DNA from: an uncultured Sulfolobales archaeon
GTDB taxonomy: Archaea > Thermoproteota > Thermoprotei_A > Sulfolobales > NBVN01
Direction: 5' to 3'
Assembly: GCA_938073905.1 (NCBI GenBank)
Contig: CALJEN010000005.1
Coordinates: 130,667-194,666, forward strand
Length of the DNA: 64,000 bases
Positions 3,183 to 59,199 of this stretch are shown here, in pieces. Within the stretch, counting starts at the first letter, position 1. Every line of letters starts with the position of its first letter. A program made the translations under genes and the position numbers. The notes under the pieces are model-generated. The model had not been told where the DNA came from. It did no database searches and worked only from the letters and a program-made list of their open reading frames with translations.

Positions 3183-3290
<108 letters not shown>

Positions 3291-3483: not shown

Positions 3484-3601
3484 TGCGGGGGGTGGGATTC
3501 GAACCCACGCAGGCCTGCGCCAGCGGGTCTCCTACCCAAACGCCAAACGATGTCGGAGGGTCTTAAGCCCGCCCCCTTCGACCAGGCTCGGGCACCCCCG
3601 C
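3484..3601 (-). tRNA. tRNA-Leu (anticodon TAA) with a 33-nt intron
   Basis: Class II tRNA on the minus strand. Acceptor stem GCGGGGG/CCCCCGC with discriminator A, anticodon stem GCGGG/CCCGC, loop CTTAAGA giving anticodon TAA, a long variable arm after the anticodon stem, and T-arm GTGGG-TTCGAAT-CCCAC. The intron at 3529-3561 lies between positions 37 and 38. CCA is not encoded. A TATA-like TTTTAAG element at about 3627-3634 sits roughly 30 bases upstream of the 5' end. Confidence 0.93.
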
Positions 3602-3805: not shown

Positions 3806-5362
3806 ATGAGCGGAGAGTATTACGAGGACAAGGTGAGGACGGCCGGAGAGGTGGTGCTAGTCCCCGATAGCACCGTGATCTACAACGGAGTCCTCAGGAG
3901 GCTCGTAGTCGGCGAGAAGGTCGAGGGCGTCGTCGCGATACCCAAGGAGCTCGTGATGTTCTTCGACAGCCTGAGCAGGGAGGGCAAGAGCCTGGGCGTC
4001 GTTGCTCTCGAGGAGCTCAGGCTGGTCAGGAGCCTGGCCGAGAGGTACGGTGTGGAGCTGAGGGTCGTGTCACTCGGGAGGAGGGTCGAGGACATAGACG
4101 TTGCTATAAGGGAGTACGCTTACGAGAACGGCTACGTCCTCGTGACCTCCTCCAGGACCCAGAAGCTCGCCGCCGAGGTGCTCGGTGTCAGAGTCCTCTA
4201 CAGGGAACCCGAGAAGGTACAGCTCAAGGCTCTCGAGAAGTACTTCACCGGAGACGTGATGAGCGTTCACCTCAAGGAGGGAGCCCCTCCCCAGGTCAAG
4301 AGGGGTCGCCCGGGGAAGTGGGTCCTCGAGAGGGTCTCCGACGTCCCCCTGACCCGCGAGGAGCTCGAGGCCCTCTCCGAGGAGATCCTCGAGGCCGCCA
4401 AGACCCTGCCTGACGCCGTTATCGAGATAGAGAGGAGCGGGTCGACGATAATCCAGCTCGGCGACTACAGGATCATAATCACGAGGCCCCCCATGAGCAG
4501 CGGCTGGGAGATAACGGCCGTGAAGCCCCTCGCCAGGCCCAGGCTCGAGGACTACTACCTCCCGGAGAAGCTCCTGAGGAGGCTCGAGGAGAGGGCGGAG
4601 GGGATAGTGATAGCCGGTGCTCCGGGCATGGGCAAGACGACCTTCGCCCAGGCCCTCGCCGAGTACTACGCGAGGAGAAACAGGATAGTGAAGACCGTGG
4701 AGTCCCCCAGAGACATGAGGCTGCCGCCCGAGGCTACGCAGTACTCGAAGGTGTACGCGACACCCGAGGAGCTCCACGACATCCTCCTCCTCAGCAGGCC
4801 GGACTACACGATATTCGACGAGATGAGGAACGACGAGGACTTCAAGCTCTACGTAGACCTGAGGCTGGCCGGGATCGGGATGGTCGGGGTAGTCCACGCG
4901 TCATCCCCCATAGACGCCATCCAGAGGTTCATCGGGAGGGTGGACGTGGGCATGCTGCCGTCCGTGGTGGACACGGTCATATTCATAGACTCCGGCGAGG
5001 TCAGGAAGGTCTACGGGCTCGACATCACGGTGAAACTGCCGACGGGACTGAGGGAGTCCGACCTGGCTAGACCGGTCGTGGAGGTCAGGGACGCGCTAAC
5101 CGGGGAGCTGGAGTACGAAATATACACCTTCGGCGAGCAGACCACCGTGATCCCGGTCAAGAAGGTGTACGCGAGCGGCGTGAGGAAGAACGTGGAGCCT
5201 CTCATAAAGTCCCTCGTCCCCTCGGCTAAGGTGCTGTACGACGGGGAGAACGTGGTCGTGAGGATCCCCAGGGAGGAGGCCAAGAACCTCAGCAAGCTGA
5301 GGCGGAAGATTAGGAGGCTTAGGGAGAACCTGGGAGTCAACATAGTCGTCGAAGTCGAGTAG
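3806..5362 (+). CDS. PINA: PIN-domain ATPase with C-terminal KH domain
   Basis: Archaeal conserved ATPase (518 aa). An N-terminal PIN-like nuclease domain (about residues 15-130) is followed by a PilT/VirB11-type ATPase domain with Walker A GAPGMGKTT near residue 272 and a DYTIFDEMR Walker B-like segment near 333. A KH-like RNA/DNA-binding domain occupies roughly residues 450-518. The Sulfolobus homologue (PINA) forms a hexamer that drives Holliday-junction migration with Hjm/Hjc, so a recombination-repair role is likely; this comes from family knowledge. A TATA box (GCTTATAA, about 3761-3768) precedes the ATG. It converges on the next gene. Confidence 0.88.
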   Translation: MSGEYYEDKVRTAGEVVLVPDSTVIYNGVLRRLVVGEKVEGVVAIPKELVMFFDSLSREGKSLGVVALEELRLVRSLAERYGVELRVVSLGRRVEDIDVAIREYAYENGYVLVTSSRTQKLAAEVLGVRVLYREPEKVQLKALEKYFTGDVMSVHLKEGAPPQVKRGRPGKWVLERVSDVPLTREELEALSEEILEAAKTLPDAVIEIERSGSTIIQLGDYRIIITRPPMSSGWEITAVKPLARPRLEDYYLPEKLLRRLEERAEGIVIAGAPGMGKTTFAQALAEYYARRNRIVKTVESPRDMRLPPEATQYSKVYATPEELHDILLLSRPDYTIFDEMRNDEDFKLYVDLRLAGIGMVGVVHASSPIDAIQRFIGRVDVGMLPSVVDTVIFIDSGEVRKVYGLDITVKLPTGLRESDLARPVVEVRDALTGELEYEIYTFGEQTTVIPVKKVYASGVRKNVEPLIKSLVPSAKVLYDGENVVVRIPREEAKNLSKLRRKIRRLRENLGVNIVVEVE

Positions 5363-5374
5363 GAGCCGTCTACC

Positions 5375-6214
5375 CTACCCCTCGCTCAGGTAGCGGGAGA
5401 GGGCAAGGGCCAGACTCAGGGGCGTGAGGACGTGGGAGAGGTCTATCCCCTCCTTCGAGAGCTCCCTGTCGAGCTCGAAGAGAGCTTTCTGGCTGAGCTC
5501 GGTCAACCTGCTCAGCCTCCCACACTCGGGCTGCGCAAGCTTGAGGAACGCTCTGACGGCTACCTCGTTGGGTTCGGCACCGCTCGCGAGCTCCCGCCCC
5601 GCCTCGGACCCCACCTCGATCACGTAATCGAGCCTCTCTAGTGTATACCGCAGGTCCCTCACCCTCGTCCCCAGAGCGGAGAGTACGTCCCCCAGGGTCG
5701 GCCTCTCGGTCGCCAGCCGGCTGGAGGTCAGCCCTAGCTCCGCGAGAGCCAGGGAACCGGTCCCGTAAAACTGCCTCACTCCCTCGATCAGTGCCGCCAC
5801 GTCCTTGGGGTTGTCCACGCTGAGAACCGCAGAGAGGGTCTTCCTGTAGCTGCTCGCGAAGGGGCGCCAGCGCAGAGAGCAAGCCGTGGCCACGGTCGAC
5901 GGGATCAGGACCAGGTTGAGGGCCTGGTGAGCCCTCGCTCCCAGCCTCCTGTAGGACTTCGCGAGCGAGCTGTAGAGGATGCGGCCCACCCCCACGCTGT
6001 GGAGGGTCTCCCTACCGCTACTGACGCTCAGCCCAGCGCTGAAGGCCTGGTTGTAGACGTCAAGCGAGGAGGTCACGGTGAAGACTGTGGACTCCAGGTC
6101 CCTGAATCTCGTGGAAAACCTGTGCGGCGCTGCTGGCTTTACGTACGAGTAGACCGCTAGGAGCAGAGCTTCCATCAGTCTGGCCACGTACTCCGCCGCC
6201 AGTTCCACCGCCAA
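5375..6214 (-). CDS. CitG/MdcB-like (triphosphoribosyl-dephospho-CoA synthase superfamily) protein
   Basis: All-helical 279-residue protein. The N-terminal SYVKPAAPHRF...RFRD (residues 23-39) recalls the KPGNVHR...FRD signature of the CitG family, and GVGRILYSSL plus a later ARAHQALNLVLIPS recall the conserved G-x-I and GGNTNLGIxLLxAP segments. The glycines and asparagines of the active-site motifs are partly replaced, and no citrate or malonate lyase gene is nearby, so the classical prosthetic-group reaction is doubtful. TTG start at 6214 (a GTG lies two codons in). A TATA-like CTAATTAG at about 6247-6254 is on the same strand. Assignment is moderate. Confidence 0.5.
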   Translation of the reverse strand: MAVELAAEYVARLMEALLLAVYSYVKPAAPHRFSTRFRDLESTVFTVTSSLDVYNQAFSAGLSVSSGRETLHSVGVGRILYSSLAKSYRRLGARAHQALNLVLIPSTVATACSLRWRPFASSYRKTLSAVLSVDNPKDVAALIEGVRQFYGTGSLALAELGLTSSRLATERPTLGDVLSALGTRVRDLRYTLERLDYVIEVGSEAGRELASGAEPNEVAVRAFLKLAQPECGRLSRLTELSQKALFELDRELSKEGIDLSHVLTPLSLALALSRYLSEG

Positions 6215-9975: not shown

Positions 9976-10065
9976 GGGGCCGTCGTCTAGCTTGGGAGGA
10001 TGCCAGCCTGGGGACGTTCCCCGCCGGTACGCTGGTGGTCCCGGGTTCAAATCCCGGCGGCCCCA
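9976..10065 (+). tRNA. tRNA-Pro (anticodon GGG) with a 16-nt intron
   Basis: Acceptor stem GGGGCCG/CGGCCCC with discriminator A, a GTCTA...GGAT D-arm, anticodon stem CCAGC/GCTGG, loop CTGGGG+C giving anticodon GGG, and T-arm CCGGG-TTCAAAT-CCCGG. A short 16-nt intron (10014-10029) interrupts the loop after position 37. CCA is not encoded. A TATA-like CTTAAAAG lies about 28 bases upstream. Confidence 0.94.
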
Positions 10066-26647: not shown

Positions 26648-26816
26648 GAACCTAGCTCTACGTCGATGGACTACCGCCTGCTGGGTTCTGGGCCACGCGG
26701 GCTCTAAGACTGCGCGGCCCTCGGGCTTACCGGCCTCGAGCTCCTTCCGAATCCGCGGGAGCTCCCATCGGTCTCCTTCCTCGTCAGGGTATAACGGCAG
26801 CTCCTAGACGGCTAAC

Positions 26817-27010
26817 TCGTACACTCCCTACTGCATAGGAGGGACAGCCGGCGTGTCCGGAGTGTGGTGAAGAGAATAGCACCGAATGGGTATGCGGAGG
26901 GGGCCCGGGACGTGAAGGACCTCCGCCGTCCCCGAAGGCCTCCGAGGTCTCTCGGACCGAGGCGGAATGCGTAGCTGTTGATGACGGATCCCCTTTCCGG
27001 CCGGCGAGAT
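26817..27010 (+). ncRNA. Structured non-coding RNA 'A' with kink-turn (paralogue of the RNA at 51.7 kb)
   Basis: No coding potential. A TATA element (GGTATAAC, 26788-26795) predicts a 5' end near 26817-26822. Visible structure: a short hairpin GGT...ACC (26866-26883) with loop GAAG.GA..TA; CCGAATGGG (26882-26890); a 7-bp stem GCGGAGG/CCTCCGC (26894-26900/26920-26926); a closing helix CCGTC/GACGG (26926-26930/26983-26987); and CCCCGAAGGCC leading into a kink-turn at 26938-26963. The kink-turn comprises stem GCC/GGC, 3-nt bulge TCC, tandem GA/GA and stem GGTC/GACC. GGAATGCGTAG follows. All these parts recur in the RNA at 51665-51885. The 3' end is estimated. Confidence 0.7.
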
Positions 27011-51591: not shown

Positions 51592-51664
51592 GGGGAGGGT
51601 CGCGAGGGTTCGGCTGCAGCCCCTAAATAGTAAACTTTATATACCTCTCCCCAACACTACATGA

Positions 51665-51885
51665 TGGCGGGATAGGCGCGCCCGGTATGTGGCGAAGCGA
51701 GTAAGCCGAATGGGCACGCTATGAGGCGCTCGATGTGGGGTGCTTCACCGTTGCCCCCGAAAGCCACCGAGGCCTCCGAGGCCGAGGTGGAACGCGTAGT
51801 CACGAAGTGTTGACTACGCGACAACGGTTTGAGAGATAGGTGAGGAGTCGAAAGGCTCGGGCCCGGGTTCCGAGGAGGTTTGCCG
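51665..51885 (+). ncRNA. Structured non-coding RNA 'B' with kink-turn (paralogue of the RNA at 26.8 kb)
   Basis: A strong TATA box (TTTATATA, 51636-51643) sets the 5' end near 51662-51668. Parts seen: hairpin GGC...GCC (51691-51707) with loop GAAGCGAGTAA; CCGAATGGG (51706-51714); stem GAGGCGC/GTGCTTC (51723-51729/51740-51746); closing helix ACCGTTG/CAACGGT (51747-51753/51822-51828). Inside it lie CCCCGAAAGCC and a kink-turn (stem GCC/GGT, bulge ACC, GA/GA, stem GGCC/GGCC; 51763-51788). GGAACGCGTAG follows, and a 9-bp hairpin CGCGTAGTC/GACTACGCG (51793-51820). A GAAA-capped hairpin lies near 51845-51860. The 3' end is estimated. It is not coding, and is not recognisably SRP or RNase P RNA. Confidence 0.75.
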
Positions 51886-59074: not shown

Positions 59075-59199
59075 GGCGGATCCCGACCATAGCGGTCGGG
59101 AAACACCCGGACTCGTCAGATCCCGGAAGTTAAGCCGGCCGCGTTGGAGAGGCAGTGAGGTCCGCGAGGCCTCGCAGCCTCTCCAAGTTGGGATCCGCC
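59075..59199 (+). rRNA. rrf: 5S ribosomal RNA
   Basis: About 125 nt. Ends pair perfectly over ten bases (GGCGGATCCC/GGGATCCGCC, helix I). Conserved 5S segments are present: GACCATAGCGG, ACACCCGGACTCGTC, CCGGAAGTTAAGCC and the loop E/helix IV region. It stands alone with its own TATA element, unlinked to 16S/23S, as in many Thermoproteota. The end coordinates are set by the pairing. Confidence 0.95.

Follow-up and report, generated by a model that had tools for sequence, protein, structure and literature searches.

Two regions of the analysed window, a 64,000-nucleotide stretch from the draft genome (79% complete) of an uncultured Sulfolobales archaeon, are very probably non-autonomous, MITE-like derivatives of an IS607-family transposon. 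The second region (copy 2) would constitute a small gene for a TnpB guide RNA, and solo guides of this kind would serve TnpB in trans. A preliminary description had presented the two regions as related, structured and covarying non-coding RNAs, which was borne out, and as a stand-alone new ncRNA family with two paralogous copies. The latter view has to be replaced, as what the non-autonomous deletion derivatives carry here is the guide RNA from the right end of an IS607-family TnpB transposon. The same genome contains 10 exact matches to the shared block pattern, 33 places matched by copy 2 using blastn (13 with copy 1 as the query), and 36 covariance-model matches. The four shared blocks were found in both regions in the order and at the places described, including the spacing of 48 and 49 bases from CCGAATGGG to CCCCGAA, and neither copy contains a reading frame of note.

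Copy 2 is one of 8 near-identical and about 30 recognisable copies of an element of ~222 bp. The 8 copies share 93–99% identity over a single fixed stretch, beyond which the flanking sequences are unrelated; about 25 further copies are diverged. Among 29 distinct copies examined for tnpB content, 3 contain a near-complete tnpB, one contains fragments, and the remainder have at most a C-terminal remnant. At least 8 solo elements in this genome have an intact putative promoter. One near-identical copy (L016, G000:C5:316698) carries an 8-bp tandem duplication on the loop side of the terminal hairpin. The features of both window copies are listed in the table. Copy 2, first placed at 51665-51885, extends over 51606-51827; the span 26817-27010 given for copy 1 cut the left end and overshot the right end of a feature located at about 26787-26987. 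Of the TATA boxes proposed for each copy, that of copy 2 (TTTATATA) is clear and shared, whereas the site in copy 1 is degenerate (CTCGTACAC). Based on the position of the TATA box, the RNA start of copy 2 would be expected at about 51661-51668.

Table. Features of the two element copies in the window, in window coordinates.
Feature	Position	Strand	Evidence and remarks
Copy 1, a decayed family member that has lost the terminal hairpin and has a degenerate TATA site	26787-26987	+	77% identity to C10:61807-61949; aligns with copy 2 and L050
Copy 1, H1 stem GGCGUGUCC/GGGUAUGCG	26850-26896	+	8/9 pairs kept
Copy 1, stem read earlier as a kink-turn, GCC-UCC-GA-GGUC..GACC-GA-GGC	26936-26966	+	Sequence; register ambiguous with CCUCC/GGCGG
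Copy 2, complete non-autonomous IS607-type element, 222 bp, GG at both ends	51606-51827	+	Identity of 8 copies over this exact stretch, unrelated flanks; ends shared with the tnpA-tnpB element L062
Copy 2, left end GGGTTCGGCTGCAGCCCCTAAATAGTAAACTTTATATACC...	51606-51667	+	82% identity to L062 3807-3866, upstream of tnpA
Copy 2, putative TATA box TTTATATA	51636-51643	+	Kept in 8/8 near-identical copies
H1 stem GGCGCGCCC/GGGCACGCT (51675-51683 with 51712-51720), remnant of TnpB zinc-finger codons	51675-51720	+	Pairing 91% over 28 distinct sequences
H2 hairpin GGGG/CCCC, loop holds ACCGUUG	51737-51758	+	Covariation with GCCG/CGGC in relatives
Pseudoknot strand ACCGUUG	51747-51753	+	Partner 51822-51828; 98–100% paired, two-sided changes
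C/NC stem CCACC-GA-GGCC-UCCGA-GGCC-GA-GGUGG	51764-51790	+	Kink-turn position of relatives; 3-nt bulge absent here
Terminal hairpin CGCGUAGUCA...UGACUACGCG	51793-51820	+	92% paired; two-sided changes in 3/9 pairs
Right end (CAACGG) with the first flank nucleotide (U); forms the 3' pseudoknot strand and closes the scaffold	51822-51828	+	Right-flank nucleotide in the IS607 scaffold (PMC10711439)
Predicted guide, first ~20 nt of the right flank, different for each copy	51829-51848	+	Flanks unrelated between copies; guide function putative

A complete element of ~1866 bp (L062) begins with a left end at 3807, followed by intact tnpA (3878-4504) and tnpB (4479-5729) genes, with the right end GACAACGG at 5672. 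The former matches the IS607 transposase NF033518 (E=5e-58) and the latter matches NF040570, guided TnpB (E=2e-34); on inspection of the sequence the D...E...D residues of TnpB are kept. Copy 2 shares both ends of this element, the left one together with its TATA region (82%), and retains a short piece of the zinc-finger region between them; it is thus an internal-deletion derivative of such an element. Its ends are those of an element encoding an IS607 TnpA (a serine recombinase with a MerR-like HTH), which places copy 2 in this family. Beside the complete element lies a second tnpB (L062 2821-3783), the N-terminal part of which is missing at the point where the complete element inserted, pointing to nested insertion and deletion. 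A second kind of element with the same ends is found in L063 (G000:C3:11500-17500) and at L021 1515-3064; here, an ORF with tandem ribbon-helix-helix domains (Pfam RHH_1) overlaps the tnpB start and replaces the serine transposase.

The shared blocks can be traced to the same source. Upstream of several copies the sequence continues as a tnpB gene, and in L019 the blocks coincide with TnpB zinc-finger codons (CPICGAVNKPNGHAYKCGKCG...), the frame running on via CCCCGAAGGCC..GGAACGCG as PPKATEASWAEVER. Two of the blocks, TGTGG(C/T)GAAG and CCGAATGGG, are thus what is left of zinc-finger codons; the other two, CCCCGAA..GCC and GGAACGCGTAG, map within the predicted right-end guide RNA (omegaRNA/reRNA), which overlaps the tnpB 3' end. 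In L019, L021 and L099-L113 this RNA is located at the 3' end of tnpB and terminates at the right end of the transposon. Mimicry of 23S rRNA had been considered, as CCGAATGGG also occurs near the 23S start, and was rejected once the block was shown to correspond to TnpB codons.

The RNA structure is conserved well beyond this genome. Pairing in H1 drops to 33–63% when the strands are slid, and the stem shows many compensatory changes, also within intact tnpB genes. In the right ends of relatives, the GGGG/CCCC hairpin is replaced by GCCG/CGGC despite a change in the encoded peptide from WGALPLPPK to CRPLPLAAK. A pseudoknot is formed between the loop of this hairpin (CCGUUG) and the CAACGG that closes the right end. 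Over 21 sequences the hairpin and pseudoknot together show 93.9% pairing and score 0.215 for covariation, versus 0.059 in shuffles (0/500). For the whole scaffold in 13 sequences, pairing is 92% and 14 of 29 pairs are changed on both sides (5.9 expected; 0/500 shuffles), compared to at most 49% pairing in slid controls. These counts were obtained from related sequences and are therefore not probabilities; the argument is based on effect size and the slid controls. A MAFFT alignment of all relatives misplaced the C-stem in one subgroup, so sequences were segmented by structure and the pair count was limited to the alignable subset. The fold of copy 2 is also more stable than that of shuffled sequences (z -3.75). 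A scaffold with conserved stems and a pseudoknot reaching to the 3' end is what characterises omegaRNA/reRNA.

The helices of the preliminary description can be judged against this scaffold. The CCGTC/GACGG versus ACCGTTG/CAACGGT pairing is real and conserved across the phylum, and the stem GGTC/GACC versus GGCC/GGCC is present. The proposed GCGGAGG/CCTCCGC versus GAGGCGC/GTGCTTC pairing can form locally, but is not conserved in relatives, where the hairpin alternating between GGGG/CCCC and GCCG/CGGC covaries. Although it appears in the minimum-energy fold, the GAGGCGC/GTGCTTC helix was rejected, being absent in relatives and in competition with the covarying H2.

Within the order, 44 of the 214 genomes contain a covariance-model match to the RNA, and within the phylum 53 of 398 do; some matches are at the end of tnpB and others stand alone. 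Close relatives of the TnpB (60–72% identity) are encoded in drafts of Nitrososphaeria, Terraquivivens, Bathyarchaeota, Methanomethylicales and Jordarchaeia. In G048 and G123, the solo copies inspected have AT-rich TATA-like sites upstream, and those of G048 retain the kink-turn. Rfam scans of both window copies, at gathering and permissive thresholds, returned no relevant match, including to archaeal RNase P and SRP, and RNase P, SRP and tRNA readings were rejected on these scans. Neither RAGATH-18 nor any other Rfam omegaRNA model matched the two copies (E<=10) or the relatives (E<=5).

The element is mobile, since one copy (C6:15188) splits a gene, arylsulfotransferase-like by its sequence, that is uninterrupted in the congener G006; when the flanks of this copy are joined, they align with G006 over 600 bp without a gap at 93% identity. 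In full copies the left end reads GGG and the right end CAACGG, the following base usually being T. These ends and the gapless empty site indicate insertion at GG without target duplication, with the position of the core uncertain by 1 nt. A fixed right-flank nucleotide is part of the IS607 RNA scaffold (PMC10711439), and the copy ends with their flanking T fit both this feature and IS607 recombination at GG. Over its first 20 nt, the predicted guide of L015 matches the empty G006 allele with a single mismatch.

We infer transcription of the solo copies, RNP formation in trans and cleavage along the following lines. Internal deletion would have removed tnpA and most of tnpB, and the left end with its TATA box, the zinc-finger remnant and the right end would have stayed. 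Transcription of copy 2 would begin close to 51665, cover in turn H1, H2/pseudoknot, the GA stem and the terminal hairpin, and pass the right end (51827) into host DNA, of which the first ~20 nt would be used as guide. Mobilisation of the copies in trans, by GG recombination, would fall to an IS607 TnpA encoded elsewhere in the genome (C2). Intact TnpB, from C2 or C3, would be loaded with the solo guide RNAs and would cut empty alleles in which a GGG-type motif accompanies the guide sequence, and such cleavage would favour retention and copying of the element.

Copy 1 itself is an inactive relic. Its fold is no better than that of shuffled sequences (z +1.24), it is not among the 36 covariance-model matches of its own genome, and by blastn it has only weak similarity to the other copies. 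The main rival explanation is that all of these elements are plain IS607 MITEs, i.e. mobile junk that TnpA moves; on this view, the RNA structure of the solo copies is a mere inheritance from tnpB without present use, and the copies themselves may be silent passengers. We consider this rather unlikely. It would account for the decay of many copies in this genome, the loss of the terminal hairpin and fold signal in copy 1, and the covariation among own-genome copies alone, which does not exceed that of shuffles (variation here is too small to show structural selection). However, H1, H2/pseudoknot, the GA stem, the terminal hairpin and an upstream TATA-like site have all survived in deletion derivatives that arose independently in other genera (L043; L185 and L187 in G048). 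Since a MITE needs only its ends, this repeated retention of the scaffold suggests that it is used. Use of another kind, in which solo guides have been co-opted to steer a TnpB-derived repressor or nuclease to host or viral targets, is quite improbable: promoter-bearing guides at ~30 sites, each with a different 3' flank, would suit such a role, but the D...E...D residues of TnpB argue against a dead regulator, and the 3' flanks are mere insertion-site DNA, with one copy breaking a gene.

A kink-turn (C-stem, 3-nt bulge, GA..GA, NC-stem) is found in ~16 of 20 relatives. In the genome under study, the 3-nt bulge is missing in all 16 segmented copies, the C-stem pairing straight through as CCACC/GGUGG (CCACU/AGUGG in L018), and in many copies the second GA is replaced by GG. 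The consensus kink-turn of the preliminary description thus belongs to the wider family, but is unsupported in this genome; in the window copies it was rejected on the basis of register, GA loss and CCACU/AGUGG. The motif is most likely ancestral to the family and damaged here. Because the bulge is deleted, L7Ae binding is doubtful in this genome, and for copies 1 and 2 it is predicted to be unlikely. A host regulatory or structural ncRNA family bound by L7Ae via the kink-turn, as first envisaged, is highly improbable, despite the motif in most relatives and the L7Ae-binding Pyrococcus abyssi RNAs sRkB and sRkC, which are related to OrfB 3' ends (PMC3124441), given the uniform loss of the bulge (16/16), the decay of copy 1, and an RNA that is mobile, multicopy and the same as the sequence at the right end of a tnpB gene.

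The components of the TnpB guide-RNA interpretation are already known: IS607 reRNA with pseudoknot and kink-turn in bacteria, archaeal IS607 MITEs, and L7Ae-binding RNAs from OrfB 3' ends. HEARO/IscB omegaRNAs are likewise multicopy guide RNAs, some without a nuclease gene, but they belong to the IscB/Cas9 lineage and involve a different RNA and transposase. Published features of IS607 reRNA include GG crossover, a flank nucleotide in the scaffold and an essential pseudoknot (PMC10711439), and the RAGATH-18-type reRNA of ISFba1 has a kink-turn and a G-rich TAM (PMC11061315). The RNA described here resembles the reRNAs of ISFba1 (PMC11061315) and ISXfa1 (PMC10711439) in its IS607 context, a scaffold terminating at the right end, a pseudoknot between hairpin loop and 3' end, the kink-turn stem, a G-rich motif and GG crossover. 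It differs from both in the extra H1 stem inside the zinc-finger codons and in the loss of the kink-turn bulge in its own genome. Unlike RAGATH-18, which is separate from the coding sequence, it overlaps the tnpB 3' end and has no Rfam match.

Alongside IS607 elements, 14 MITEs of ~260 nt have been reported for Staphylothermus marinus (PMC2678158), which are similarly non-autonomous, multicopy, intergenic or gene-disrupting, and hosted by a thermophilic member of the Thermoproteota. They were described as related to the region upstream of the transposase, with the guide RNA unrecognised, whereas solo copies in G048, from the same order, carry the scaffold. Transposase-linked kink-turn RNAs that bind L7Ae have been reported for Pyrococcus and cited for Sulfolobus (PMC3124441). 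P. abyssi sRkB/sRkC and the L7Ae-bound Sulfolobus sRNAs are, like the present family, ~210-nt RNAs from dispersed repeats related to the OrfB (TnpB) 3' end, with BRE/TATA promoters and kink-turns; their expression and L7Ae binding were demonstrated, whereas expression of the RNAs here is a prediction and their kink-turn is damaged.

The point of interest is the genome-wide arrangement of solo guides. More tentatively, and with somewhat less than even confidence, we suggest one nuclease with many guides: ~30 solo omegaRNA elements per archaeal genome, arising by repeated internal deletion of IS607 elements in several genera, would load a shared TnpB with guides from their insertion sites, making MITE spread and retention RNA-guided, and the known archaeal IS607 MITEs and L7Ae-binding transposase sRNAs would be the same thing. 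Should solo guides act in trans, a MITE could be more than transposase-borne junk, with targeting information of its own, which would explain why independent MITEs have the same interior. An apparent orphan ncRNA family becomes a testable transposon mechanism, linking the literatures on archaeal IS607 MITEs, L7Ae-binding sRNAs of transposase 3' ends and TnpB guide RNAs. In a literature search with thin coverage of subscription journals, no paper was found that joins TnpB guide RNAs with L7Ae or with IS607 MITEs. Further products of the analysis are a covariance model and a large set of natural scaffolds of thermophile origin.

The order also contains a second solo guide-RNA subtype (L131-L142, L183-L189), with a GAGCCC/GGGCUC or GAGGCC/GGCCUC hairpin and a long kink-turn stem; the associated tnpB is just 32–37% identical to the L072 type. 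Elsewhere in the window, Rfam tRNA matches at 3183-3290, 3484-3601 and 9976-10065 are longer than normal (90–118 nt) and probably bear introns, with ARAGORN finding one only. A lone 5S rRNA gene is located at 59079-59196, with no 16S/23S match beside it.
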